Of a DNA stretch of 64,000 nucleotides, positions 27,989-63,393 are shown piece by piece; the first letter of the stretch is position 1, and every line of letters starts with the position of its first letter. The stretch is taken from contig JABXHO010000007.1 of the NCBI GenBank assembly GCA_013373595.1, positions 1-64,000 on the forward strand. Reading direction: 5' to 3'. The notes beneath the pieces were generated by a model. The model saw only the letters and a list, made by a program, of their open reading frames with translations, ran no database searches and was not told the DNA's origin. This DNA comes from Flavobacteriales bacterium (lineage in GTDB: Bacteria; Bacteroidota; Bacteroidia; Flavobacteriales_D; Crocinitomicaceae). A program made the translations under genes and the position numbers.

Positions 27989-27997
27989 TACTTTTGC
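27989..27997 (+). promoter_or_regulatory. -7 box of hpt-adk
   Basis: TACTTTTGC, a full match to TAnnTTTGC. It contains the TTG at 27994 that would start the longest frame, so translation must begin downstream, at GTG 28015. Confidence 0.65.
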
Positions 27998-28014
27998 AGT
28001 CTAATCGAAAAAGC

Positions 28015-29136
28015 GTGATTCAAGTACTCGACAAATCTTTTGAAGTTTTTATCACCCGAGAAGAAATCCAACGGGAAATCGCAAGTTTAGCGGAGAAGAT
28101 CAATAACGACTACAAAGGTCGTGATTTGGTGTTTCTTTCCGTTTTGAACGGAGCATTTATGTTTACGTCTGATCTGATGAAGAAGATCACCATCGACTGC
28201 GAGGTGTCATTTGTTAAAATGAGCTCGTATTCTGGCGTAGAATCCCGAGGAAGAGTGGATGAGTTAATCGGTCTGGGTGACAATATTGAAGGTCGTGACA
28301 TTGTAATAGTGGAGGACATTGTAGATACGGGAATCACGATCGATAAGATTATTTCTCTTCTCGAACCAGAAGGTGCAGCATCCGTTAAAGTATGTACATT
28401 GTTGTATAAACCAGATGCTTTCAAAGGAAAGAAGCGCCCGGATTACGTTGGATTCTCCATTTCGAATGCCTTTGTTGTTGGGTACGGATTGGATTACAAT
28501 GAGAAAGGAAGAAATCTTGACGCGATTTATCAAATACGTGAACAAAAAAAGCAAAGAAATAGCATGTTGAATATAGTACTTTTTGGACCTCCAGGTGCGG
28601 GGAAAGGGACGCAATCGGAGCGTCTAATCGAAAAATACAACCTCGTACATCTTTCTACAGGTGATATTTTTAGAGCGAACATCAAAGGATCTACTGAGTT
28701 AGGTGTCCTTGCGAAAACATATATCGACAAGGGACAATTGGTTCCTGACGAAGTAACGATTAACATGTTGAAAGCGGAAGTGGAAAAACACGATGATCCG
28801 AAAGGATTTATCTTTGACGGTTTCCCTCGCACAATTGCTCAGGCTGAAGCTTTGGATGAATTCCTATCGAGTATTGGAACTTCAATCACATCTATGATTT
28901 CTTTGGATGTAGAGGAAGAAGAATTGAAAGCGCGTTTGGCGAAACGAGCGGAAACAAGTGGTCGTCCAGATGACGCTGATCCGAAAGTGATCCAAAACAG
29001 AATCGACGTGTATCGAAATGAAACAGCACCTGTGAAAGATTACTACGAGTCGCAAGATAAGTGGGTAATGATTAACGGAGTTGGATCAATCGATGAGATA
29101 ACTTCGCGCTTGTTTGCAGCCGTTGACGCGCTGTAA
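28015..29136 (+). CDS. hpt-adk: bifunctional hypoxanthine phosphoribosyltransferase-adenylate kinase
   Basis: 373 residues in two enzymes. Residues 1-180 are HPRT (LNGAFMFTSDL, the PRPP loop VIVEDIVDTGIT about 97-108, KPDYVGFSI-like segment RPDYVGFSI), which salvages hypoxanthine or guanine with PRPP. From about M184 is adenylate kinase: P-loop FGPPGAGKGT, STGDIFR, FDGFPRTIAQAEAL, and a short LID without zinc cysteines (RAETSGRPDDADP), which interconverts AMP, ADP and ATP. The longest frame starts at TTG 27994, inside the promoter, so GTG 28015 is chosen; it gives MIQVLDKSFEVFI, typical of HPRT. I recall the same fusion in other Bacteroidota. obgE follows after 34 bases. Confidence 0.95.
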   Translation: MIQVLDKSFEVFITREEIQREIASLAEKINNDYKGRDLVFLSVLNGAFMFTSDLMKKITIDCEVSFVKMSSYSGVESRGRVDELIGLGDNIEGRDIVIVEDIVDTGITIDKIISLLEPEGAASVKVCTLLYKPDAFKGKKRPDYVGFSISNAFVVGYGLDYNEKGRNLDAIYQIREQKKQRNSMLNIVLFGPPGAGKGTQSERLIEKYNLVHLSTGDIFRANIKGSTELGVLAKTYIDKGQLVPDEVTINMLKAEVEKHDDPKGFIFDGFPRTIAQAEALDEFLSSIGTSITSMISLDVEEEELKARLAKRAETSGRPDDADPKVIQNRIDVYRNETAPVKDYYESQDKWVMINGVGSIDEITSRLFAAVDAL

Positions 29137-32470: not shown

Positions 32471-33514
32471 TTATTCTTCCGCGGCCTTTTTAGACTCTTT
32501 GATTTCTTTTGCGGTGTTTCGGTTGTTTCCGATGTAGAAACCGATTTGCAATTCGTGTGTGCCGTTGGTGCCTGTTCTCAAGGGACCAGTACCAAATTCA
32601 TAGCCGTAGGCTGCGTAAATGTTCTGGATGATGTTTGTCCCTAACTGAAAAGTAATGGCATTACTCGTTCTGTATTGAAGTGCCAACCAAGACGCATTGT
32701 TGTAAATGAAACGTGCCCCAATATCCGCAGAAAGAGGACTGTTTTGAACGTATTTCGTAACGAGAGTTGGTTCAATCGAGAATTGCTCATTTACACTGAA
32801 ATTGTATTTCGCTACCAAGAAATAGTGACGATTGAAGTTGCTTTCTGTGACAACATCTGTAAACTCAACCGAGTTTTTGAGGAGTTGCGTTGTAGAGATT
32901 CCAACGAACAATTTCTCACCATAAAACACAACTCCGGCGTTGGCATCTATGATATTTTGTGAAGATGTGTTTCCTAGAAATTGGTTATACGCCGCATCGT
33001 CTTCTTGGAAAAGAATAACACGGTCTTGAATGATTCCAAGGTTGCTCCAACCGAGTCCAATACCGCCTCCAAAATTGATTTTTTTGGTGAATGGTAGGTG
33101 GAAAGCATAGCTTCCGTAAACTGAAGTTTTTACGAAAGGACCGATAGCATCGTACACCGCTTTTCCTCCAACTACATGCTTCATGACTCCCGTCGAGCGT
33201 TTTGGCGATTGGAAAAGCATGTCGTTTTGAGAATTGAATTCGTCCAATGAACTTTCTGACTGTTTGCCCACTTTTATTGGAGCATGTCCCACCAAAAGAA
33301 CAGATCGAGGTCCTCCGTTGTATCCCGACCACTGATTTCGTGTGGATAACTCCAAATGAGCCACTTTTGACATTCCTCCAGCTGCTGGGTTCAACATGAA
33401 TGGATTACTCGCCATGTTTAAGTAATGCCCTTCCTGTTGAGCATGTCCAACTCCTGCAAAGCAAATGAGTACGGTTACAAGAAGATAATTGGTTGTGTGA
33501 AATATGTTTTTCAT
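32471..33514 (-). CDS. type IX secretion PorP/SprF-family outer-membrane protein
   Basis: 347 residues: signal peptide about 1-25, then the PorP/SprF hallmark NPFMLNPAAGGMSKVAHLEL and STRNQWSGYNGGPRSVLLVG, followed by alternating barrel strands (FNFGGGIGLGWS-like FGGGIGLGWSNLGIIQDRV, VFYGEKLFVGISTTQLL) and LQIGFYIGNN near the end. In this phylum SprF/PorP-like proteins sit beside, and are needed for surface display of, type B (CHU_C) T9SS cargo. It begins ten bases after the HYR adhesin, its evident partner. Confidence 0.92.
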   Translation of the reverse strand: MKNIFHTTNYLLVTVLICFAGVGHAQQEGHYLNMASNPFMLNPAAGGMSKVAHLELSTRNQWSGYNGGPRSVLLVGHAPIKVGKQSESSLDEFNSQNDMLFQSPKRSTGVMKHVVGGKAVYDAIGPFVKTSVYGSYAFHLPFTKKINFGGGIGLGWSNLGIIQDRVILFQEDDAAYNQFLGNTSSQNIIDANAGVVFYGEKLFVGISTTQLLKNSVEFTDVVTESNFNRHYFLVAKYNFSVNEQFSIEPTLVTKYVQNSPLSADIGARFIYNNASWLALQYRTSNAITFQLGTNIIQNIYAAYGYEFGTGPLRTGTNGTHELQIGFYIGNNRNTAKEIKESKKAAEE

Positions 33515-33524
33515 GTTTCTTCTA

Positions 33525-36500
33525 TTATCTGATGATACTGATGTCTCCTGTTAATACTGTTCCATCGGTGTCGTTTAGTTCGATTCGATAGAAATAAGTT
33601 CCCATTGGTAGCGGTTCTCCTTCGTGAGTTCCATCCCACGGCTCGGCGTAGCCAGTCGATTCAAATACGAGATCACCCCAACGGTTGACAATCGTAACGC
33701 GACAATCTGGATACAACACATCCAAGAATTCGACAACGAAGAGGTCGTTTTTACCGTCGAAGTTCGGTGTGATGACTGTGGGTATGATTGGGTCAAGTCC
33801 CTCGCAAATGCTTCCAGCGATTATCACGGTATCGCTAACGGTTGGGCAGTTCGGGTGAGAAACTTCGTAAATCAAGATACTGATGCCATTCTCCGTAATT
33901 TCTACAGAAGTGTTTGGTGAATAAAGATCATCAATCGAACCTCCACCTGAAATAAATGACCAGTAAGCTGATTGACCGCTTTCTAGAGAGTCAGCACTTA
34001 GCTGTACAATGGCGTCCTCAAGGCAGACAAGAGAATCTGAGCTTGTGGCGTTTAATTCGTTCGAAGTATAGAAGACAACGACACTGTCCGAAGTGGATGG
34101 ACATGTTCCGTTGCTTACCGTCCAAGTGTATGTGTAGTAACCTGTCGAATCGAGTGTCGTGAACATCACGTTTGAGTTCGCGTTTCCGATAGTTGCTTGA
34201 GGCGTTACAGTCCAAATACCTGTTCCAACTGTGGCTGCGGTTGCTTGCAGCATAACTACACTGTCCGAACATGTAAAGATAGAATCGGCAGAAATACTCG
34301 TTGGGAATGGAGGCTCATGTCGAATCACAATAATACTATCACTGGTTGACCCACATTGAGCGGTCGAAATCGTCCATGTGTACATGTTTGTTCCGTACGC
34401 AATGTTATTGACACCTGTTGTGTTCGCGAATTCGTTGTTGAAGCTTCCAACTCCTGAACTAACCGTCCATTCTCCAGTTCCTGAAGTAGCTGGATCTGCC
34501 TCAAGCAATGCTGTTGCGCTCGAACAAAGTTCAATGGTATCCGCTAAAATGGTTGCATCAGATGGATATTCCAAAACCTCTACGCGGAAGTTACATCCGG
34601 CTACGTTACCTGAGCTATCAACAGCTTGATATTCGAGGATAGTAATACCTATTGGGAAGGTGCTTCCCGACGAATAACCTGTTCCGTCCGTTTGATTAAG
34701 GCTTACCAAACAATTGTCTGAGAATACCGGTGAAGTGTAAAATACAACAGGGTCGCACGTCACAGTGTCGTTTGGACAGCTAATCAGTGGTGATTCGGTT
34801 TCTGTAACAAACAATTCGAAATCGCATGATGCTGTGTTTCCTCCGGCATCAGTTGCTGTAAGTGTTATGGTGTTGTACCCAACAGGAACAGTTGATCCAG
34901 CAGCAGGAGATTGAGAAATGGTGTAGCCACTACAATTGTCCGTAACCGTAGCTAAAGTGATGTAACTAGGAATTACATAATCACATGACGTTCCTGCGCT
35001 TGCTGTTTGCGGACCAGGACATGTAATGGTTGGAGGAGTGGTGTCATCTGGAAGTACATTCGCAATACATGTACTTGAATTTCCACTTTCGTCCGTGAGT
35101 GTAATCAAAACAGGCGTGATTCCACTTGAAATCGTTCCTGCAGTTGGGTTTTGCGTAACGGTCATGTCTGCTAAAGCCGAACAGTTGTCCGTTCCTCCAA
35201 CAAGCGAAGAGAAGTCTGGGATGGGGTATGAACAACTCGCATCAATCGCAACTGTTTGGTCGGCAGGACATGCAATTACGGGACTAGTTGTATCGTCCAA
35301 CACAACATTGAATGTACATGTGTTTGAGTTTCCTGCTTGATCAGTAGCGGTGAGTGTTACCAAGGTTGTTGTTGAAATGGTGCTTCCTGAAGCCGGGCTT
35401 TGCGTCAATGTAATTCCTGCCGTATTCGAGCAGTTATCTGAAACAGTTGCCAATGGTGTGTAGTCAGGAAGTGATGCTGAACAAGCAGCGTCAACAATGA
35501 CACTTTGTGTTGGAGGACACACGTCAAAAACGGGAGCTGTCTGATCCGATACTGTTAAATCAAAACTACAGTTCGATGAATTTCCATTTTCATCAGCCAC
35601 GGTGATGGTGATAGAATGTGTTCCTGCAGTTAAAATCGTTCCTACTGAAGGAGATTGTGAAAAGGATAATGATCCACTCACCGTACAGTTATCTGAAGCA
35701 GATGCCAAACCTGTGAAGTCTGTCAATGTATACGTACAGTTTGCAGAAGACGTTCCAACGGTTTGGTTGGGAGGACATGTTATCGATGGTGGTGTTTGAT
35801 CAACAATGGTAACCGTAAACGTACATGACCCTGTATTTGAAGATTCATCTTCAGCTGTTAACGTCACAGTTTGTGGTCCGCTAAATGGAGTTCCAGGGGC
35901 GGGAGATTGAGTAATGGTAATGTTCGACGGAGCTGAACAGTTGTCACTTGCAGGAACCAAAGATGTATAATCACCTAGTGTTCCGTCACAGGTAGCGTTC
36001 GCTGGCTCTTGTTGATTCGATGGGCAAACAATAACAGGTGAAATAGTATCAACTACTGGAACAAAGAATTGACATGAATTTGTGTTTCCTGATGTGTCGC
36101 TCACGGTTAAAGTAACAGGTAATGTTGGGTTCAATCCTACAGTGGCTCCTGGAACAGGTGATTGCGTCACCGTTAATGTTGATCCACAGTTTTCAGTGAC
36201 GGTTGCTCCTGCGGTTAAATCGTCGAGTAGTGCTGTACAGTTTGTTCCGACGTATTGAGGAGTTGGATTGGTAGGACAAATAATTGCGGGGGCAATTGTA
36301 TCCACAATCCACCCGTTGAATGTACATGATTTCGGAAGGTTGGGTGTTCCACCAGTAACTGTCAACGTAATTACTTGATGCGAACTAACAACCGTACCTG
36401 GCGCTGGAGATTGCGTCACTGTCAAATTAGAAAGAGGCTCACAATTATCAACCAAAACGGCGTCTGCAGTGTAGTCTCCAACCGTTGCCTGACAGGTCAT

Positions 36501-37673
36501 GTCAACGATTAGTCCTGTATCTGAAGGACAGGTTATCGAAGTGGGAATTGTATCCAGTGTCCGCATATCGAATGTACACGTCGTACTGTTTCCGTATTCA
36601 TCCGTTGATGTCATAATGATTGGCGTTACCACAATGGCTCCGTTGATGATGGTTCCTGGAGTAGGACTTTGCGTTGTGGTAATGTTCGAGGCAGACGAAC
36701 AATTGTCTGACTCTACCACGAAGGCAGTATAATCCGGTAGTAAACCATCACAGTTATTGTCTACGAACACAGAGGTGTCTGCAGGACAAACAGATGTTGG
36801 AGAGATGGTATCGATAATGTTTAATGTGAAGTTACAAGTTGAAGAGTTTCCTGACTCGTCTGTTGCAGTTAACACAATCACTTGTGAACCTCCAGGTCCT
36901 GCGCCTAGAACAGTGTTCGCAGGGATATCTTGAACTACGGTAATGTTTACCGAATCAGAACAGTTGTCGGATAAGGTAAATCCTGAAGTTGTGTAATCTT
37001 CTGTAACGGCAAGACAGGCACCTTGAACGGGTAAATCTCGTGGGCTGTCGCATACAATAACGGGTGGTGAAGGATCAATTCCCGTAATAACTACGTTATC
37101 TACCGCAAGTGGTTCTCCAGAGATCGTTGCATCGTTGTACGTAAAACGGAATCCAATTTCGAATACGGTTCCTTCTAAAGCAACAGGCAATGGAAATCCT
37201 GAAGCAGCAGACCATGTAGCAGAAATCGGCAACGCAGGTCCCAAAGAAATCCATGTTACTCCTCCGTCAGTCGAGTAAACGGCCTCAGCGAAATCTTCAC
37301 CAGCAATTCCTCCCATCAGGTAATCAAAAGATAACTGGAGCGTGGTTGCACATCCTGCGTCTACTGTGTGCGAAATAATGGTGCTATGCGTTAAACCAGC
37401 AGGTGCGTTCGCATATGCGAATTCTTCTGTTTGACCAGGATCACAACCTGGCGAAGATCCTCCGGTAGGTGAGATATACATACTGTTGATACCTCCTAAA
37501 GTGGGTCCGTTTCCGGGACAGTTGCTAACAATCCACTCGTTTGGAGTGAGATCACCACTTGCGGTCCATGTTATTCCTCCTGTTTCGAATAAATCTTCGA
37601 GAAGTGTAATATTTTGCGCAGTAAGTTGCGTTGAAGCTAGTATTGCCAGCGAACATAAGAGCAGCTTGATCAT
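33525..37673 (-). CDS. giant HYR-repeat adhesin with T9SS type B sorting domain
   Basis: 1382 residues from ATG 37673: signal peptide (IKLLLCSLAILASTQLTAQ), a jelly-roll-like domain of about 190 residues, ten tandem HYR repeats of about 80-86 residues (each with xPxIxCP near the start, DNC in the middle, QSPxxGT, and LTxTDxxGNxxxCxF near the end), three further repeats of about 85 residues (GTGxWTV and a TSDSxxV end), and a type B C-terminal domain (PNFDGKNDLFVVEFLD, VTIVNRWGDLVFES, PMGTYFYRIEL). The longest frame starts with TTG 37700 inside the TATATTTG box, so ATG 37673 is used. Surface adhesion or gliding is inferred from SprB-like layout; the PorP/SprF gene follows. Confidence 0.94.
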   Translation of the reverse strand: MIKLLLCSLAILASTQLTAQNITLLEDLFETGGITWTASGDLTPNEWIVSNCPGNGPTLGGINSMYISPTGGSSPGCDPGQTEEFAYANAPAGLTHSTIISHTVDAGCATTLQLSFDYLMGGIAGEDFAEAVYSTDGGVTWISLGPALPISATWSAASGFPLPVALEGTVFEIGFRFTYNDATISGEPLAVDNVVITGIDPSPPVIVCDSPRDLPVQGACLAVTEDYTTSGFTLSDNCSDSVNITVVQDIPANTVLGAGPGGSQVIVLTATDESGNSSTCNFTLNIIDTISPTSVCPADTSVFVDNNCDGLLPDYTAFVVESDNCSSASNITTTQSPTPGTIINGAIVVTPIIMTSTDEYGNSTTCTFDMRTLDTIPTSITCPSDTGLIVDMTCQATVGDYTADAVLVDNCEPLSNLTVTQSPAPGTVVSSHQVITLTVTGGTPNLPKSCTFNGWIVDTIAPAIICPTNPTPQYVGTNCTALLDDLTAGATVTENCGSTLTVTQSPVPGATVGLNPTLPVTLTVSDTSGNTNSCQFFVPVVDTISPVIVCPSNQQEPANATCDGTLGDYTSLVPASDNCSAPSNITITQSPAPGTPFSGPQTVTLTAEDESSNTGSCTFTVTIVDQTPPSITCPPNQTVGTSSANCTYTLTDFTGLASASDNCTVSGSLSFSQSPSVGTILTAGTHSITITVADENGNSSNCSFDLTVSDQTAPVFDVCPPTQSVIVDAACSASLPDYTPLATVSDNCSNTAGITLTQSPASGSTISTTTLVTLTATDQAGNSNTCTFNVVLDDTTSPVIACPADQTVAIDASCSYPIPDFSSLVGGTDNCSALADMTVTQNPTAGTISSGITPVLITLTDESGNSSTCIANVLPDDTTPPTITCPGPQTASAGTSCDYVIPSYITLATVTDNCSGYTISQSPAAGSTVPVGYNTITLTATDAGGNTASCDFELFVTETESPLISCPNDTVTCDPVVFYTSPVFSDNCLVSLNQTDGTGYSSGSTFPIGITILEYQAVDSSGNVAGCNFRVEVLEYPSDATILADTIELCSSATALLEADPATSGTGEWTVSSGVGSFNNEFANTTGVNNIAYGTNMYTWTISTAQCGSTSDSIIVIRHEPPFPTSISADSIFTCSDSVVMLQATAATVGTGIWTVTPQATIGNANSNVMFTTLDSTGYYTYTWTVSNGTCPSTSDSVVVFYTSNELNATSSDSLVCLEDAIVQLSADSLESGQSAYWSFISGGGSIDDLYSPNTSVEITENGISILIYEVSHPNCPTVSDTVIIAGSICEGLDPIIPTVITPNFDGKNDLFVVEFLDVLYPDCRVTIVNRWGDLVFESTGYAEPWDGTHEGEPLPMGTYFYRIELNDTDGTVLTGDISIIR

Positions 37674-37697
37674 AGGGAAATGCCTTTTTAAGTCGTA

Positions 37698-37705
37698 CAA
37701 ATATA
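37698..37705 (-). promoter_or_regulatory. -7 box of the HYR adhesin operon
   Basis: TATATTTG on the minus strand, full TAnnTTTG match, about 24 bases before ATG 37673. Confidence 0.6.
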
Positions 37706-50686: not shown

Positions 50687-51364
50687 CTAACGGATAGTAT
50701 TATCGTAGCAAGATACTTGTTTGTATTGAAAACCAACGTATTCACGGTTTTGGAGGAAAGCGTACCATGGATATTCTTTTGTCGATGTAATATCATTCAT
50801 TAAACGTGCTAGATCAATCCAAAAGAGCTCCTCTACATTATCGTATTTGTCCTTTATGTAGAAACCGATTTTGGTTGGAACAAATTCACCATTATCATCT
50901 CGATCCTCTTGAATACGCAATTCAACAAGTTGATCCAAGTTGATGCGATAAACCTCTGGTTCTTCGTACAGAATTGTGATGCTTCCATCGGCTTCTATAC
51001 GAGAGAGCGGTTCGCCATATTCGTCAACAAGACAAACATCAGATTGAACGTAGATGGTAATGATGTGATTGCTCGTATCTAAATAGTCTTCGTACGTGAT
51101 AAAGTTCGAGTCTATTTTCATCAGAGGAGATGGTGTCGAAGATTGATACCTTTGAAATGAGCACTGGCTATGAAATGGTAGAATCTTATGTTCGTGGCTC
51201 TTTTTGCGTATAGTTCTCAGGATACTTGTGGAAGGGGCGAACAAAACCCGATTTTCAGCAGAATTCTTTACCGAAATCCAACGCGTTTGAATGCATGCAG
51301 TATCCACTTGACTAAAGCCAGAATTTAGGAGGGAAATAAAAAAGACCAAAAACCAATAGTTCAT
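50687..51364 (-). CDS. secreted protein with GldN-like C-terminal region (paralogue 1)
   Basis: 225 residues: signal peptide (LVFFISLLNSGFSQ), then DTACIQTRWISVKNSAENRV, shared with the neighbour, one copy of a 35-residue repeat (QSDVCLVDEYGEPLSRIEAD and GSITILYEEPEVYRI), and an end with VELRIQED, KIGFYIKDK, EELFWIDLARL and YPWYAFLQNREYVGFQYK. From memory the end follows the order of GldN, a T9SS ring protein (ELFWIFFPS and NSRRF segments), but the match is remote. Two conserved cysteines, one near each end, suggest a disulfide. Not a canonical GldN. Function unknown; envelope location inferred from the signal peptide. Confidence 0.72.
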   Translation of the reverse strand: MNYWFLVFFISLLNSGFSQVDTACIQTRWISVKNSAENRVLFAPSTSILRTIRKKSHEHKILPFHSQCSFQRYQSSTPSPLMKIDSNFITYEDYLDTSNHIITIYVQSDVCLVDEYGEPLSRIEADGSITILYEEPEVYRINLDQLVELRIQEDRDDNGEFVPTKIGFYIKDKYDNVEELFWIDLARLMNDITSTKEYPWYAFLQNREYVGFQYKQVSCYDNTIR

Positions 51365-51367
51365 TTC

Positions 51368-51376
51368 AGAAAGGTA
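51368..51376 (-). promoter_or_regulatory. weak -7-like box of the downstream paralogue gene
   Basis: TACCTTTCT then GAA then ATG 51364. Spacing matches the leaderless set but the box has C for the final G. Confidence 0.25.
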
Positions 51377-51398
51377 GCTAATTCAAAAATAAACGTAA

Positions 51399-52289
51399 CT
51401 AGTTCTTACTGCAGGGCATTTTCATTGTTGTTTTTCCGGTGTAGTATCGTCCTTTTAAGAAGTTATACCATTCCTGTTTTTCAGGCGATTCGATGTTTTT
51501 GTAGAAATCGTCCAAGTCAATTTTGAGTCGCTTGAGGTATTTCCCCAATTTGATGTCAAACTGAATAGACACAGCACGGAATTCACCAAAGTACTCATTG
51601 GTTTCTTCATTGTAGAGGCGCTCTTCGGTAATAATCATGCCGTTAATTGATCGTGTGTATACACTGTATTCTTTTGGATTTTCGAATAGGAAGGCTTCTG
51701 TTCCGTCTTCAAGTGTTGTTATTTTATAGGTTCCGTCCTCATTTTTTAGTGGAATGTCCGATTGAATAGAAAATGACATCAAATCCGTGTACACGCCAAC
51801 CTCTGATCCGTCAGGATTGGTAATAGTCAGCAAATCCCCGTCGTCGTCGACGAGAGGAAGATCCGATTCATGCGTAACCGAGATTGGTTTTGGATGATAG
51901 AATTGCTGCGTCCCATCAGGTAGATTGCGCATCATTGTCGAGCCGTCAGGATTTTCTAACGATCCGTATTTGTGAGCATAAATCGTGTTTGGTTCGGGAA
52001 AAAGGACGGACATTCCGTGATCTGTAGTTACGATTGTCGATTTCCCTTTTCGGTTCGGTATGGGAACTACATCTAATTCTTCATCATTGATGGTTAGTTG
52101 TTGTTCGTCGAGTTGTCGTGCTAATTCTTGAACGAGGTTATTCATATCGCTAAATAACAAGGCGTTCAACTCTGTGTTTTCGACTAGAATCCATCGTTTT
52201 CCGACACAGTTCGTATCCGATTGAGAAAAAGTTCCAAAGGAAAAAGTAGTTGCCAGAAGCAAAATGAATAATGGTTGTGAAAGTGTCAT
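51399..52289 (-). CDS. secreted repeat protein with GldN-like C-terminal region (paralogue 2)
   Basis: 296 residues from ATG 52289 (the longer frame to TTG 52337 precedes the signal peptide and is dropped). Signal peptide LSQPLFILLLATTFSFGTFS, then DTNCVGKRWILVENTELNAL, shared with the 50687-51364 product. Residues about 106-211 are three consecutive units of about 35 residues, two of them clear (ESDLPLVDDDGDLLTITNPD, QSDIPLKNEDGTYKITTLED) and the first looser. The end, ITEERLYNEETNEYFGEFRA to PEKQEWYNFLKGRYYTGKTT, again has the layout of the GldN tail. Final Cys near the end. The paralogue has only one repeat, so copy number differs. Function unknown. Confidence 0.72.
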   Translation of the reverse strand: MTLSQPLFILLLATTFSFGTFSQSDTNCVGKRWILVENTELNALLFSDMNNLVQELARQLDEQQLTINDEELDVVPIPNRKGKSTIVTTDHGMSVLFPEPNTIYAHKYGSLENPDGSTMMRNLPDGTQQFYHPKPISVTHESDLPLVDDDGDLLTITNPDGSEVGVYTDLMSFSIQSDIPLKNEDGTYKITTLEDGTEAFLFENPKEYSVYTRSINGMIITEERLYNEETNEYFGEFRAVSIQFDIKLGKYLKRLKIDLDDFYKNIESPEKQEWYNFLKGRYYTGKTTMKMPCSKN

Positions 52290-52550
52290 TTGTATAGCTT
52301 TTTTATTGTCAATAGCAATATAATAACTGAAAACCAATACGTTACTTAATTTTCTCTTAAATCTTTGTTAAAAGTTGAAAGAAGCACTTTTCAGAAATTC
52401 TCGCTACAATGAGCTTCAGCATTTTCAAACTTGAATTTGTCTGACTGCATAAGTTAGATCATTGTGCTCATTGAACGCAGATGAAAAAAGATGTTTTGGG
52501 ATGAGCACTTTATTTGACCCTACGAAAGTTCTGTGGTTTGAGCGCGATGC

Positions 52551-52611: not shown

Positions 52612-53856
52612 CTATTCTTCAAACTTCTTGAACAACACCGATGCGATGTGTCCTCCAAACCCAAAGGTATTACTCATTCCGTAAGTCATTTCTTTTGGAA
52701 CAGCTTTTCCGAGTGGGAAGTCGAAATTATCGGCAAAATCGGGTTCAATATCTGTTGTATTGATGGTAGGTGGAACCATTCCTTCTTTCAATGCCAAAAC
52801 GGTAGCAATTCCTTCAATGGCTCCAGCCGCACCGAGCAAGTGTCCTGTCATGGATTTAGTCGCAGAGATCGACAATGATTTTCGTTTTCCAAATACGCGA
52901 TCAGCTGCAATCAATTCGCTTTTATCTCCCAGTGGAGTAGACGTTGCGTGCATGTTTACGTAATCAATGTCTTCTGCAGTGATGCCTGCTTCTCGCATAG
53001 CTTCGTTCATTCCGAGCACGGCTCCATCTCCGTCAGGATGCGTTCCCGTTAAGTGGTAAGCATCGGCAGCCATTCCGCCACCAACAATTTCTCCGTAGAT
53101 TGTCGCTCCACGTTTTTTGGCGTGTTCGTATTCTTCCAAAACGAGTGCTCCCGCTCCTTCGCCCATTACGAAACCATCACGATTCACGTCAAATGGTCGT
53201 GAGGCACTTTTCGGGTCGTCGTTGCGCATCGATAGCGCTCTTGCTGAGGCAAATCCTCCCATGGATGCTTCGGTAATTGCCGCTTCTGATCCTCCGCTGA
53301 TAATCATATCTGCTTTGTCCCATTTGATGTAGTTGAACGCTTCAATTAATGCCGTGTTTGATGTTGCACAGGCCGAAACGGGACAGAAATTTACTCCGCG
53401 AAGTCCGTACTTAATAGAAATGATTCCAGCGGCTATATCCACCAAAATTCGAGGGATGAAGAAAGGAGTGAAGCGTGGTGTTCCATCTCCCTGAATGTAT
53501 TCGGTCATTTGGTCGCCAAAGGTTTGAATTCCTCCGTTTCCAGATCCCCAAATCACTCCAATTCTGTCTTTGTTGAGTCCTTCAAAATCGATGTTGCCAT
53601 TCGTTAATGCTTGATCTACGGCATGGAGTGCATAGAGCGAGAATGGATCGTATTGTCTGATTTCTTTGACATGAAAATGATCCTTCACGTCGAAATCTTT
53701 CAGTTCGCACGCAAATTGAGCGCGAAATTTTGAAGCGTCGAATTTGGTAATCGTACCAGCTCCGCTCACACCATCTTTTAAATTATTCCAAAATGTATCT
53801 ATATCATTTCCGATGGGAGTTAATGCTCCCATTCCAGTAATTACAACTCTTCTCAT
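52612..53856 (-). CDS. fabF: beta-ketoacyl-[acyl-carrier-protein] synthase II
   Basis: FabF condenses malonyl-ACP with acyl-ACP in fatty-acid elongation. 414 residues: RRVVITGMGALTPIGND, catalytic Cys in VSACATSNTALIEAF, catalytic His in YVNMHATSTPLGDKSE and SMTGHLLGAAGAIEGI, and NTFGFGGHIASVLFKKF. All three catalytic residues are in place. In many bacteria fabF follows acpP and precedes rnc; neither is here, so this could be a second KAS-II copy or a relocated one. It has its own structured leader (53874-53930) and promoter candidate. Confidence 0.96.
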   Translation of the reverse strand: MRRVVITGMGALTPIGNDIDTFWNNLKDGVSGAGTITKFDASKFRAQFACELKDFDVKDHFHVKEIRQYDPFSLYALHAVDQALTNGNIDFEGLNKDRIGVIWGSGNGGIQTFGDQMTEYIQGDGTPRFTPFFIPRILVDIAAGIISIKYGLRGVNFCPVSACATSNTALIEAFNYIKWDKADMIISGGSEAAITEASMGGFASARALSMRNDDPKSASRPFDVNRDGFVMGEGAGALVLEEYEHAKKRGATIYGEIVGGGMAADAYHLTGTHPDGDGAVLGMNEAMREAGITAEDIDYVNMHATSTPLGDKSELIAADRVFGKRKSLSISATKSMTGHLLGAAGAIEGIATVLALKEGMVPPTINTTDIEPDFADNFDFPLGKAVPKEMTYGMSNTFGFGGHIASVLFKKFEE

Positions 53857-59620: not shown

Positions 59621-59959
59621 ATGCACGAAGGAATGTCTGTTGGAATTGGATTGTATTGGCCGCTGATGATTGGTGGTGCCACACTTTATTCTTCCTTTCC
59701 TGTTGATTTGGTGCTTTGGATCATGGTGGGAGCGTACGGTGCAATGGCCTTATTCGCTGTGGTCACCTTACCCGTAGAATTCGATGCTTCTCGTCGCGCT
59801 CTGGCGTGGATCAAAGACAGTGGAACGGCAACAGTCCAAGAGTATGAAATGTCGAAAGATGCCCTGAAGTGGGCGGCGATGACTTACGTTGTAGCGGCGT
59901 TGGCAGCGATTACATCTCTGGTGATTGTACTCGTTCAATTACTTGGAAGAAGAGATTAA
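59621..59959 (+). CDS. small membrane protein, unknown
   Basis: 112 residues with about three membrane helices (GLYWPLMIGGATLYSSFPVD, LVLWIMVGAYGAMALFAVVT, WAAMTYVVAALAAITSLVIV) and a short charged middle (EFDASRRALAWIKDSGTATV). No recognised domain. Plan and residue pattern resemble the DUF4149 or Bacteroidota small membrane proteins with a zinc-less middle, but I assign none. Its TAA stop overlaps the convergent GH3 stop by two bases. Confidence 0.75.
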   Translation: MHEGMSVGIGLYWPLMIGGATLYSSFPVDLVLWIMVGAYGAMALFAVVTLPVEFDASRRALAWIKDSGTATVQEYEMSKDALKWAAMTYVVAALAAITSLVIVLVQLLGRRD

Positions 59960-61473
59960 TCGTCTTTCCCTAGATGGTTTAACCAAAGTTGATTCTGTTC
60001 TTTTGTGAGGACATGAGGGAATTTATTTTGTCCGCCCATGCGTCCACATTTTTCCATGAATTCGTAGAATACACGAGTTGGAAGTACGCGTACTTTGGGT
60101 GATTTCAAAATGTGCTTTCGAACAGTTTCGTAATCGTCGTTTAGTTGTTTCAGCGATTCGTCGATTGTATGCGCTGCATTCGCGGTGCTGATCAATTTGT
60201 TTGCACCAATGTACCAATATTGCCGTTGTTCTTGTTTGTTTGAGTAGACGGTGAATTCCTCAATTGATGCATTTTCTTCTTTTGATAATAACTCGATTGC
60301 ATGAATGAGGTTTGAGTCGGATAAATGTTCACCATGATCACTCAAATGAAAGGAAATGCGCCCCGTTATTTTGATTGTTCGCGATGCGATATCGGTGAAT
60401 TCAATAGTGTCACCCAAAGAATACCTCCAAAGTCCTGAACAGGTCGATATGATCAAGGCATATGGCGTTCGTTCCTGCACCTGATCGATAGCGAGCGTTT
60501 GCACCTGATCCATTTGATTCGAAGAGAGCAAATCGAAGTATTTTTCTTCAACGAATTCATAAAACACACCATTGGAAAGCATGAGTTGCATTCCGCCTTT
60601 CAAAAAGTCTCGCTGATACGCAAAATATCCCTCGCTGGCTAAATAGGTGTTTTGATACACCATCGGTCGTCCAAAAAGTTGATCTAGTTTCTGTTTGTAC
60701 GGTTTTAGGAAAATACCGCCATGACTGTACACGCGTAGATTAGGCCAAATTTCATGAATGTTTGCCAATTGGTAGCGCTCAATGATGCGTTCAAGGAGCT
60801 GTGAAACCCAGGATGGAACTCCGGCAATCACACCAATGTCCCAATTAGGCGCTTGCTCAATAATGGCTTCTACCTTCTTGTTCCAATCGGTCATTTTCGC
60901 AATACGTGCCGTGGGTTTGGTGAACGGTGTAAGTACAAAGGATTTGTTTTTGGCAAGAATTCCGCTCAAGTCTCCGTGATACGACTTGTTGACTTTCTTC
61001 AAATGAGTTGATCCGCCTACTATTAATGCATTGGATTCATAGAAAGAGGGAGGAAGCTGCAGTTCAGTGAGTCCTGAAACTTGTTGAATGGTCGTTTTGT
61101 GAAATTTCCGAAGCATTTTATCTGAAACGGGAATTTTCTTGCTTGTTCCAGCACTCGTGCCAGATGATAAGGCGAAATAGTTAATTCTACCCGGCCAAAT
61201 AATGTCTTTTTTTCCTTGAATTGCCAAGTGCAGCCAATTGGTGTGAAAGTCTTCGTAATTGGTAATAGGCACGGACGATTTAAATTCAGAGATGAGTGCC
61301 GCATTTTTGTGCATTTCTTTGAACCCATGGGCAGCGCCAAAAGCGGTGTTTTTTGCTTTTTTGATGAGCTTGAATAGTGTTCGTTGCTGAATTTCATCTC
61401 GCTTTGCTTTCTTACGCTGACGCACATAACTAATTCGAGTGGTTTCCTTCAAGATACTTCCAATAAGTTCCAT
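59956..61473 (-). CDS. GH3 auxin-responsive promoter family protein (copy A)
   Basis: 505 residues from ATG 61473 (the longer frame begins upstream and crosses the TACCTTTGC promoter box). An adenylate-forming fold of the GH3 family: ATP motif SSGTSAGTSKKIP (about 130), YLASEGYFAYQ, and the YSLGDTIEFTD motif with following RTIKITGR. Plant GH3 enzymes join amino acids to acidic hormones; the bacterial substrates are unknown. Paralogous to the gene at 61834-63393, to which it is divergent. Confidence 0.88.
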   Translation of the reverse strand: MELIGSILKETTRISYVRQRKKAKRDEIQQRTLFKLIKKAKNTAFGAAHGFKEMHKNAALISEFKSSVPITNYEDFHTNWLHLAIQGKKDIIWPGRINYFALSSGTSAGTSKKIPVSDKMLRKFHKTTIQQVSGLTELQLPPSFYESNALIVGGSTHLKKVNKSYHGDLSGILAKNKSFVLTPFTKPTARIAKMTDWNKKVEAIIEQAPNWDIGVIAGVPSWVSQLLERIIERYQLANIHEIWPNLRVYSHGGIFLKPYKQKLDQLFGRPMVYQNTYLASEGYFAYQRDFLKGGMQLMLSNGVFYEFVEEKYFDLLSSNQMDQVQTLAIDQVQERTPYALIISTCSGLWRYSLGDTIEFTDIASRTIKITGRISFHLSDHGEHLSDSNLIHAIELLSKEENASIEEFTVYSNKQEQRQYWYIGANKLISTANAAHTIDESLKQLNDDYETVRKHILKSPKVRVLPTRVFYEFMEKCGRMGGQNKFPHVLTKEQNQLWLNHLGKDD

Positions 61474-61489
61474 ACTTAGTGATTTGAAA

Positions 61490-61498
61490 GCAAAGGTA
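61490..61498 (-). promoter_or_regulatory. -7 box of GH3 copy A
   Basis: TACCTTTGC on the minus strand, 16 bases before ATG 61473. TTTG occurs 26 bases upstream at 61525-61528. Confidence 0.6.
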
Positions 61499-61628
61499 TT
61501 GTACCTGTTTAGCCTGAGAAGGAACAAAAGGTTATTGTTTCATGCCTTGTAGGTTATCAGAAAATGAAAATTACGGTTTGACTTGTTTTATTTTTTAGTT
61601 CGATCAATTACTACCGAAATATTTTTTC

Positions 61629-61636
61629 TACCTTTG
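61629..61636 (+). promoter_or_regulatory. -7 box of the 32-residue membrane protein gene
   Basis: TACCTTTG, full match, 17 bases before ATG 61654. Confidence 0.55.
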
Positions 61637-61653
61637 GAAAAAAACACAAAGTC

Positions 61654-61752
61654 ATGTCGGATAATTTTTTTGAAAGCTCAACAGCAGCGGTAGGAACGAT
61701 CATAACAATTGTATTATTATCAGTTGTATTTGGAATCGTATTCTTCGGATAG
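61654..61752 (+). CDS. 32-residue single-helix membrane protein
   Basis: Translation: MSDNFFESSTAAVGTIITIV followed by LLSVVFGIVFFG. The first ten residues are polar and acidic; the remaining hydrophobic run of about 20 forms one membrane helix. A TACCTTTG box at 61629-61636 gives a short leader, so the gene is expressed on its own promoter although it is too short for usual gene finding. It lies between the divergent GH3 genes, with 81 bases to copy B. I do not recognise a family. Evidence is the promoter plus a clean membrane-helix composition; proteomic proof is lacking. Confidence 0.62.
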   Translation: MSDNFFESSTAAVGTIITIVLLSVVFGIVFFG

Positions 61753-61833
61753 ACTACGCTAATTTTAAGACAATTATCCTGTCATTCCTTTGGAAAGATG
61801 GGATTTTTTTTTGCCCAAAATTAACATCATTTC

Positions 61834-63393
61834 ATGCCGTTTAACTCCATATTTGCCTGGGTAATGAAGAAACGAATCCATCAGATTGATTTGTTTCGAA
61901 AGTATCCGATTGAAGTTCAGCAAGAGCTTTTTCTCCGGCATCTTGAGGCGGGAAAGCAAACGGAGTTCGGAAAAAAGCATGACTTTTCATCCATCGAATC
62001 ATACAATGACTTTAAGTCCAAGGTGCCCCTTCAGGAATATAGTGACGTAAAACCGTGGATTGATCGTTTGATGGCAGGGGAACAAAATCTTCTCTGGCCA
62101 ACAGAAACCAAATGGTTTGCGAAATCTTCTGGTACCACAACAGGGCGTAGCAAGTTTATTCCAGTTACGAAAGAATCGCTGGAAGACTGTCACTACAAAG
62201 GCGGAAAGGATTTGTTGGCGTTGTATTACGAGAATCATCCCAAGCGAAAATTATACAAGGGAAAACATTTGATAATTGGAGGAAGTGCTGAAATCAATCA
62301 GCTCAGTGATGACTCCTATTTTGGTGATTTGTCGGCCATTATTGTTAAGAATTTGCCGTGGTGGTGTGAGATTCGACGTACGCCAGCCAAAGAAATTGCG
62401 CTGATGTCCGAATGGACGGAAAAGATTGAAAAAATGGCTCAATCCACCATCAATCAAGATGTGTACATCATAGCGGGAGTTCCAAGTTGGACGATGGTTT
62501 TAGCCAATAGAGTGCTCGAAATCACAGGGAAATCAAACCTGAAGGAAGTGTGGCCAAACCTCGAATTATTCATGCATGGCGGAGTGAGTTTTGATCCGTA
62601 TCGCGAACAGTTCAAACGACTGATTCCTGATCCTTCCATGAATTACGTAGAAACCTACAATGCTTCTGAAGGATTTTTTGGCATTCAAGATGAGGTCAAT
62701 TCAAATGAGATGCTTTTGATGCTCGATTATGGAATTTTCTTCGAGTTTATTCCGATGTCCGACTTCAAAGGAACAGAATCTACGAAGGTCTTATCAATTT
62801 CAGAAGTGGAAACAGGCGTCAATTATGCGATGGTCATTTCAACAAACGCTGGATTGTGGCGATATATCATTGGTGACACCATCAAGTTTACTTCCTTGAA
62901 ACCGTTCCGTTTCAAAATTACAGGAAGAACCAAAAGCTTTATCAACACATTTGGTGAAGAGCTAATTGAAGAGAATGCAACCGTTGCCATTGCTGAAGCG
63001 TGCAAACGAACCAATGCGGTAGTGCGCGATTTTACGGCTTGTCCTGTTTTTATGAATGGAGAAGAGCAGGGCGCACACGAGTGGTGTATCGAATTTATGA
63101 AGTCTCCCGATGAAATGGAGCGTTTCAAATTGATTTTAGACGAGGAACTACGCGCTGTGAATTCGGATTACGATGCCAAACGATACAATAATATGGTGTT
63201 GCTCGAGCCGAAGATTCATCTGATGGAAAAAGGAACATTTGATCGTTGGTTGGATTCAATTGGGAAATTGGGTGGACAGAATAAAGTGCCGCGTTTGTCG
63301 AATAGTCGAACAATTGTGGAACAAATATTGCGTTTAGATGATGCGCTTGATCTTCAAGTAAAGCCATCAGAAGTAGAAGAAGATGAAAAATAG
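61834..63393 (+). CDS. GH3 auxin-responsive promoter family protein (copy B)
   Basis: 519 residues with the same three signatures as copy A: SSGTTTGRSKFIPVT, YNASEGFFGIQ and YIIGDTIKFTS with FRFKITGR. The remaining fold is also comparable (DLSAIIVKNLPWWCEIRRTP and EIVHDFTACP-type end). It is adenylate-forming by motif, but substrate and product are unknown in bacteria. The upstream region contains TTCCTTTGGAAAG, a near repeat of the small-gene promoter region CTACCTTTGGAAAA. Start ATG 61834; the 3' end overlaps the next gene by 11 bases. Confidence 0.88.
   Translation: MPFNSIFAWVMKKRIHQIDLFRKYPIEVQQELFLRHLEAGKQTEFGKKHDFSSIESYNDFKSKVPLQEYSDVKPWIDRLMAGEQNLLWPTETKWFAKSSGTTTGRSKFIPVTKESLEDCHYKGGKDLLALYYENHPKRKLYKGKHLIIGGSAEINQLSDDSYFGDLSAIIVKNLPWWCEIRRTPAKEIALMSEWTEKIEKMAQSTINQDVYIIAGVPSWTMVLANRVLEITGKSNLKEVWPNLELFMHGGVSFDPYREQFKRLIPDPSMNYVETYNASEGFFGIQDEVNSNEMLLMLDYGIFFEFIPMSDFKGTESTKVLSISEVETGVNYAMVISTNAGLWRYIIGDTIKFTSLKPFRFKITGRTKSFINTFGEELIEENATVAIAEACKRTNAVVRDFTACPVFMNGEEQGAHEWCIEFMKSPDEMERFKLILDEELRAVNSDYDAKRYNNMVLLEPKIHLMEKGTFDRWLDSIGKLGGQNKVPRLSNSRTIVEQILRLDDALDLQVKPSEVEEDEK

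Follow-up and report, generated by a model that had tools for sequence, protein, structure and literature searches.

Two neighbouring genes on the reverse strand of the window, by which we mean the whole stretch of 64,000 nucleotides analysed here (contig JABXHO010000007.1 of a Flavobacteriales bacterium of the family Crocinitomicaceae), encode the small proteins P0001 and P0002. They raise the question of how these proteins are related to GldN, a core ring protein of the type IX secretion system (T9SS), and what they might do beside it. The original prediction described secreted paralogues with a GldN-like tail that lacked the rest of GldN and could serve as modified or accessory ring parts. 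The features from which it set out, i.e. adjacency, likely Sec signals, a shared DTxCxxxRWI motif, a repeat of about 35 residues and a WYxFLxxRxYxG motif near the end, were all found at the place given for them (Table 1). P0001 also has an alternative TTG start, upstream and in frame, at 52337, and 34 bp lie between the two genes. As set out below, P0001 and P0002 are GldN cores and not a GldN tail; we call them and their relatives mini-GldN.

Table 1. Features of the P0001/P0002 locus in window positions and, in the last three lines, hairpin-only genes of related genomes in positions of their own loci
Feature	Position	Strand	Basis or remark
P0001, mini-GldN with extra hairpins, 296 aa from ATG	51399..52289	(-)	GldN core by hhalign and fold
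P0002, mini-GldN with one hairpin, 225 aa	50687..51364	(-)	hhalign and fold
Likely Sec signal peptide of P0001, cleavage before SDTNC	52221..52289	(-)	by eye from sequence
Likely Sec signal peptide of P0002	51308..51364	(-)	by eye from sequence
DTNCVGKRWI of P0001	52188..52217	(-)	Cys at the position of the invariant Trp of family GldN (PorN W47)
DTACIQTRWI of P0002	51275..51304	(-)	alignments
P0001 first hairpin unit (weak), residues 112-133	51891..51956	(-)	HMM E 0.06
P0001 second hairpin unit, residues 140-169	51783..51872	(-)	HMM E 2.5e-8
P0001 third hairpin unit, residues 176-203, GldN register	51681..51764	(-)	HMM E 4.4e-5
P0002 single hairpin unit	50951..51046	(-)	HMM E 5.7e-9
WYNFLKGRYYTG, WYxFLxxRxYxG motif of P0001, runs into last core strand	51435..51470	(-)	sequence and profile alignment
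WYAFLQNREYVG, WYxFLxxRxYxG motif of P0002	50732..50767	(-)	sequence and profile alignment
C-terminal invariant Cys of P0001, C293, 3 residues before end	51411..51413	(-)	
C-terminal invariant Cys of P0002, C219, 6 residues before end	50708..50710	(-)	
Presumed GNAT-type acetyltransferase, syntenic marker 2 bp downstream of P0002	50160..50684	(-)	named from its sequence
Presumed FabF-type ketoacyl synthase, upstream syntenic marker	52612..53856	(-)	named from its sequence
Repeat-only protein, 4 GldN-type hairpins	L136 2117-2578		
Repeat-only protein, 4 GldN-type hairpins	L138 2123-2596		
Repeat-only protein, 2 GldN-type hairpins	L137 877-1212		

With P0001 as the query, matches were obtained in 7 of 60 genomes, its own counted, including proteins of about 235 aa with a similar plan. 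Eight small proteins aligned with four GldN in hhalign over 176 columns (P 4.7e-11). The comparison of 14 mini-GldN with 95 GldN rows, 65 from the family (63 distinct genes, since two rows are cut copies of genes already included) and 30 from the phylum sample, gave P 3.3e-14 over 181 columns in local mode, with an equal result in a rerun, and P 8.8e-17 over 215 columns in global mode. The match spans almost the entire mature protein, and 200 column permutations scored at most 21.9, compared with 97.1 for the real profile handled alike. The 14 mini-GldN are distinct, each being counted once where two handles denote it (L103=G032:C42, L105=G004:C165, L102=G018:C52, L100=G127:C12, L104=G198:C6); 12 of their rows were counted by hhalign after redundancy filtering, and eight positions are invariant across all 14. 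The Pfam GldN family (PF19841, cut-off 23 bits) recognised the Taishania pollutisoli member L100 (32.3-33.6 bits) and G004:C165 (23.1 bits). The clade members L104, L008 and L013 stayed below this cut-off, and P0001 and P0002 had no match to PF19841 up to E 10. NCBIfam TIGR03523 (equivalog cut-off 85.9 bits) was not matched by P0001, P0002 or four other clade members, the two window proteins gave sub-threshold matches only in Pfam and NCBIfam, and PorN was absent up to E 10 when a profile of eight members was run against the sequences of solved structures.

The predicted folds point to the same relationship. AlphaFold2 was run on the mature proteins from eight sequences, the two window proteins and six related loci, and reached a mean pLDDT of 73.9 for P0002 and 65.4 for P0001. 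In VIA-align, a re-ranking of Foldseek's own list, both models matched PorN 7pvh, P0002 with Z 12.9 (3.1 A, 142 residues; best unrelated fold 4.3) and P0001 with Z 11.4 (4.2 A, 144 residues; best unrelated fold 2.5), and in both lists three more PorN entries followed before the unrelated folds, so that the structural check proposed at the outset gave the expected match. In Foldseek itself, ranks 1-5 for P0001 were all PorN chains (best E 8.6e-4), and no PorN was among the top 50 for P0002. The models cover PorN residues 66-260 (7pvh) or, for P0002, 44-235 in 9ots numbering. Head, hairpin and tail of the PorN-like core are all present in P0001 and P0002, and the statement that the rest of GldN is lacking was therefore mistaken, the terminal arms alone being missing. 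The proposed likeness to GldN was borne out by hhalign, by the fold and by Pfam on two clade members, but it extends over the whole protein and is not confined to a tail. We consider it almost certain that P0001 and P0002 are GldN-core paralogues.

The lengths outside the two junctions between core and arms were compared for the 14 mini-GldN and the 65 GldN rows of the family. Of these GldN rows, 60 have 36 residues beyond the C-junction, versus 3-15 in 13 of the 14 mini-GldN; the remaining mini-GldN has 115 residues there, representing an added domain. Before the N-junction, the eight commonest lengths in GldN, 54-67 residues, account for 52 of the 65 rows, and the 14 mini-GldN have 23-52 residues with the signal included. 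The N-terminal arm and the C-terminal helix are thus absent from mini-GldN. Loop 7 is altered as well: its signature F-F-D-K-E-R-S was found in 40 of 95 GldN rows, the rest of those listed being mostly close variants, and in mini-GldN variable residues take the place of this signature (F-DK-R) as judged by eye. The Taishania genome (G127) has a second mini-GldN (L091 2334-3377) that is extended at its C-terminus by a Cys-rich region of some 115 residues, for which there was no Pfam match over the cut-off.

The repeat was traced with a hairpin HMM derived from the 65 true family GldN rows. One unit was detected in P0002, and two clear units and a weak one in P0001, in agreement with the predicted count of one versus two or three; none of 1854 shuffled ORFs matched at E<0.01, the best reaching 0.52. 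True GldN of the genus hold stretches like GPQSDIPLTDDYGDPIIITNPDGSQEYKYPP (L007), which correspond to the repeat of about 35 residues. The sequence evidence identifies this repeat as the hairpin of GldN itself, which P0001 has in additional copies. An assignment to independent surface repeats (CFSR, TIGR04203) was rejected, as these gave sub-threshold matches and the GldN hairpin HMM performed far better. The hairpin is present in 66 of 200 family genomes, many of the listed matches having the frame length of true GldN, and several of 29 GldN from other families have, by eye, a similar stretch containing D and G at the corresponding position. We also observed long proteins of 441-809 aa with one or two GldN-type hairpins (L053 2247-4676; L052 1-1808, cut; L055 1717-3687; L096 1187-2512), of which L052 and L053 show the stretch IPCEPC close to where the C-terminal Cys would stand and continue beyond it with another region. 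Given that the hairpin directly precedes the strand entering the PorK-facing loop 7, it should lie at the opposite, motor-facing end of the GldN core, i.e. the end facing PorM. PorM is predicted to bind PorN loops 4 and 6 according to PMC12421860, and the hairpin would be part of loop 6, assuming sequential loop numbering.

GldN-type hairpins occur even apart from the core. Secreted proteins of three genomes (G022, G028 and G032) contain 4, 4 and 2 hairpin units, the best with E 1.3e-11 against the GldN hairpin HMM, and beyond the hairpins a signal peptide alone was discerned in them. Their genes occupy the place of P0001/P0002 in the order acetyltransferase, hairpin gene, FabF, SufE and SufS, with an additional thioesterase-like gene at these loci; the names of these neighbours are our assumptions from their sequences. 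The DNA encoding the end of the P0001 signal peptide and the start of the G028 gene are 86% identical across 29 bases (E 5e-4 within a small comparison). It is plausible that a P0001-like gene gave rise to the repeat-only genes when it lost its head and tail, perhaps between two QSD stretches.

In a tree of 34 sequences, the 14 mini-GldN are split off by one branch with support 100/99, 15 true GldN are grouped at 99/97, and five sequences form a second arm-less group at 100/99. The tree carries several long branches that leave the places of P0001 and P0002 within the clade unfixed; we therefore do not claim the two as tandem duplicates of each other. Values of dN/dS of 0.11 and 0.22 in two close mini-GldN pairs point to purifying selection. 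Within the genus, 5 of 34 genomes had a full-length mini-GldN; such proteins were found in at least 4 of 299 genomes of the order sample (up to nine candidates scored per genome) and in at least 1 of 395 genomes of the class sample (up to seven scored per genome), namely the window's own. All holders with a genome handle belong to the window's family, and six loci in named records come from Taishania pollutisoli, Lishizhenia tianjinensis and uncultured Flavobacteriales, the two named species being, as we presume, Crocinitomicaceae.

The P0001/P0002 locus is situated on contig C153, and GldK and both true GldN of the same genome on C101, i.e. the pair lies outside the gldKLMN operon when contig positions are compared. 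On C101, GldK is followed by two ORFs that we take to be GldL and GldM and then by the tandem GldN pair (226 and 215 bits with PF19841; 176 and 195 bits with TIGR03523). The most divergent mini-GldN (G008:C23:26155-26874) shares a contig with gldN, at a distance of about 9 kb, and mini-GldN and gldN were on separate contigs in the other seven holders searched. Across 13 loci there was no recurring neighbour besides the mini-GldN themselves, except in one conspecific-like pair with shared neighbours, the Taishania locus and a near-identical UBA5422 record. A scan of promoters and terminators yielded fewer sites than in shuffled DNA. Elsewhere in the window, a single ORF at 27994-29136 reads as what is presumably a hypoxanthine phosphoribosyltransferase-adenylate kinase fusion, and two proteins that we take to be GH3-like, of similar length and in divergent orientation, occupy 59956-63393.

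A GldN over the cut-off together with exactly one GldK over the cut-off was present in 10 of 10 genomes, eight holding mini-GldN and two repeat-only proteins, which we regard as weak evidence for a link to the T9SS. A distribution in organisms without a T9SS, named at the outset as grounds for refutation, was thus not seen among these ten. The search for a second gldKLMN set, which had been suggested as a further check, gave no second gldK over the cut-off in any of the ten, and such a set was rejected as an explanation. With no recurring neighbours, descent and co-occurrence are what connect mini-GldN with the T9SS.

Taking identity and function together, we see about an even chance that P0001 and P0002 are arm-less GldN paralogues with an accessory function in the periplasm, on that side of the GldKN track which faces the motor; their identity is well supported, and their function we infer. 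Both proteins would be exported to the periplasm without being docked onto GldK. They could then take an accessory role at the motor-facing side of the track, e.g. by binding the GldM tip or a neighbouring GldN, and such binding would tune the engagement of motor and track. The accessory part of the original prediction may hold in this form.

A less probable, though quite conceivable, alternative is that a copied GldN core was taken into a role unrelated to the T9SS, for example as a periplasmic binding protein or scaffold, with the hairpin as a merely structural repeat. The scattered loci without shared neighbours and the patchy presence of mini-GldN would fit such an exaptation, as would the strong divergence within the clade (terminal branches reaching 2.1), a lipobox seen by eye in two members (L011 and L013), the added domain in L091 and the existence of repeat-only proteins without a core. 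However, the occurrence of GldN and GldK in all ten holders checked speaks weakly against it, and the hairpin has stayed near GldN's own sequence even in the repeat-only proteins, as the E value of their best unit indicates.

Doubtful, in our view, is the first suggestion that the two proteins are modified subunits that stand in for GldN at certain sites in the GldKN ring. Their full PorN core fold and the presence of several GldN versions in one genome, including tandem true GldN, in the manner of gldN/gldO, are consistent with it. In the PorKN ring, however, PorN is fixed to PorK by its N-terminal helix, its C-terminal helix with the following loop, and loop 7 (F156-D162), and PorN is anchored mainly via PorK, as described in PMC12421860; the ordered termini likewise pack within the ring in PMC12635249. 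Because these PorK-docking elements are absent from mini-GldN or, in the case of the loop-7 signature, changed as judged by eye, the reading as modified ring parts is weakened. A role as T9SS cargo was rejected, as P0001 and P0002 had no sorting-domain match in Pfam or NCBIfam. The window contains at 32471-37700 a 1391-aa repeat protein whose end resembles what we take to be a type-B T9SS sorting region, and the adjoining gene, presumably PorP/SprF-like, encodes a C-tail without the twin Cys described for SprF.

Two cysteines, one at each arm junction, are kept in 14 of 14 mini-GldN. In the global profile alignment, the N-junction Cys aligns with Trp in 65 of 65 family GldN rows, and the 30 phylum rows have an aromatic residue, Met or Lys at this position; the C-junction Cys aligns with Asn in 63 of 65 family and 28 of 30 phylum rows. 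The two positions map to PorN W47 and N236 (profile match to PorN, converted to the numbering of PMC12421860 via an offset of 21), so that each Cys sits where an arm departs from the core. By the residue contacts in PMC12421860, W47 belongs to a PorK-facing loop, and N236 lies where PorN touches the adjacent PorN, five residues away from A241, a position cross-linked to PorM. Since these are different regions of PorN, the two sites are probably distant from one another, and a simple internal disulfide would seem disfavoured if the topology is kept, as the cysteines seem to map to different PorN faces. They may tie the two ends of mini-GldN together or bind another copy or a partner. It is established for the gliding track that disulfides join GldK to outer-membrane partners (PMC12635249), and in the GldK of the P0001/P0002 genome one Cys stands in a GCF context resembling the reactive one. 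Improbable as a whole is a more elaborate model, in which the amplified hairpin would be a docking module for the GldM tip, and mini-GldN and hairpin-only proteins, having arisen as GldN lost its GldK anchors, would be free multivalent ligands in the periplasm competing for or bridging motors, with the junction cysteines forming disulfide chains or links to the track.

High-resolution structures of the PorKN ring date from 2025, and the engagement of the motor tip with PorN is described by models and cross-linking, as given in PMC12421860. The mini-GldN clade keeps the core and the presumed motor-facing hairpin and drops the PorK anchors, thereby separating two functions, and in the hairpin-only proteins of this locus one GldN element stands by itself. 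Both offer natural test pieces for the question of which GldN face the motor engages. They also show that, inside one family, copying and remodelling of a secretion-ring subunit took place more than once.

Arm-less GldN or free hairpin proteins were not described in the literature searched, a scope outside which most subscription journals fall. Among the closest known proteins are GldN-like proteins of about 280 aa from the same genus ('class C'; one each in G018, G027 and G032, two in G022), which have an arm-less core (by eye) and the hairpin. They differ in having no junction Cys (by eye) and in forming the separate clade supported at 100/99, and Pfam GldN was over the cut-off in the four from G018, G022 and G032. 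This second arm-less group was observed at L056 1911-3679, L057 1980-2825, L058 2430-3263 and L060 2128-2985, in tandem in G022.

With GldN/PorN itself (PF19841, TIGR03523; PDB 7pvh, 9mzu, 9ots, 9myj), mini-GldN share the core fold, the hairpin, the order of elements and a likely Sec signal. In contrast to GldN/PorN, they have no N-terminal arm and no C-terminal helix, their loop-7 motif is altered, a Cys stands at both arm junctions, the genes lie outside the gldKLMN operon, and P0001 has extra hairpins. GldO is a full-length copy adjoining gldN. It is known as a second GldN-type protein from PMC8986121, where the title of a cited reference describes gldN and gldO as partially redundant. P0001 and P0002 resemble GldO of Flavobacterium johnsoniae in being GldN paralogues within the same genome but, unlike GldO, they occur in a genome that already has its own tandem pair of full-length GldN on C101.
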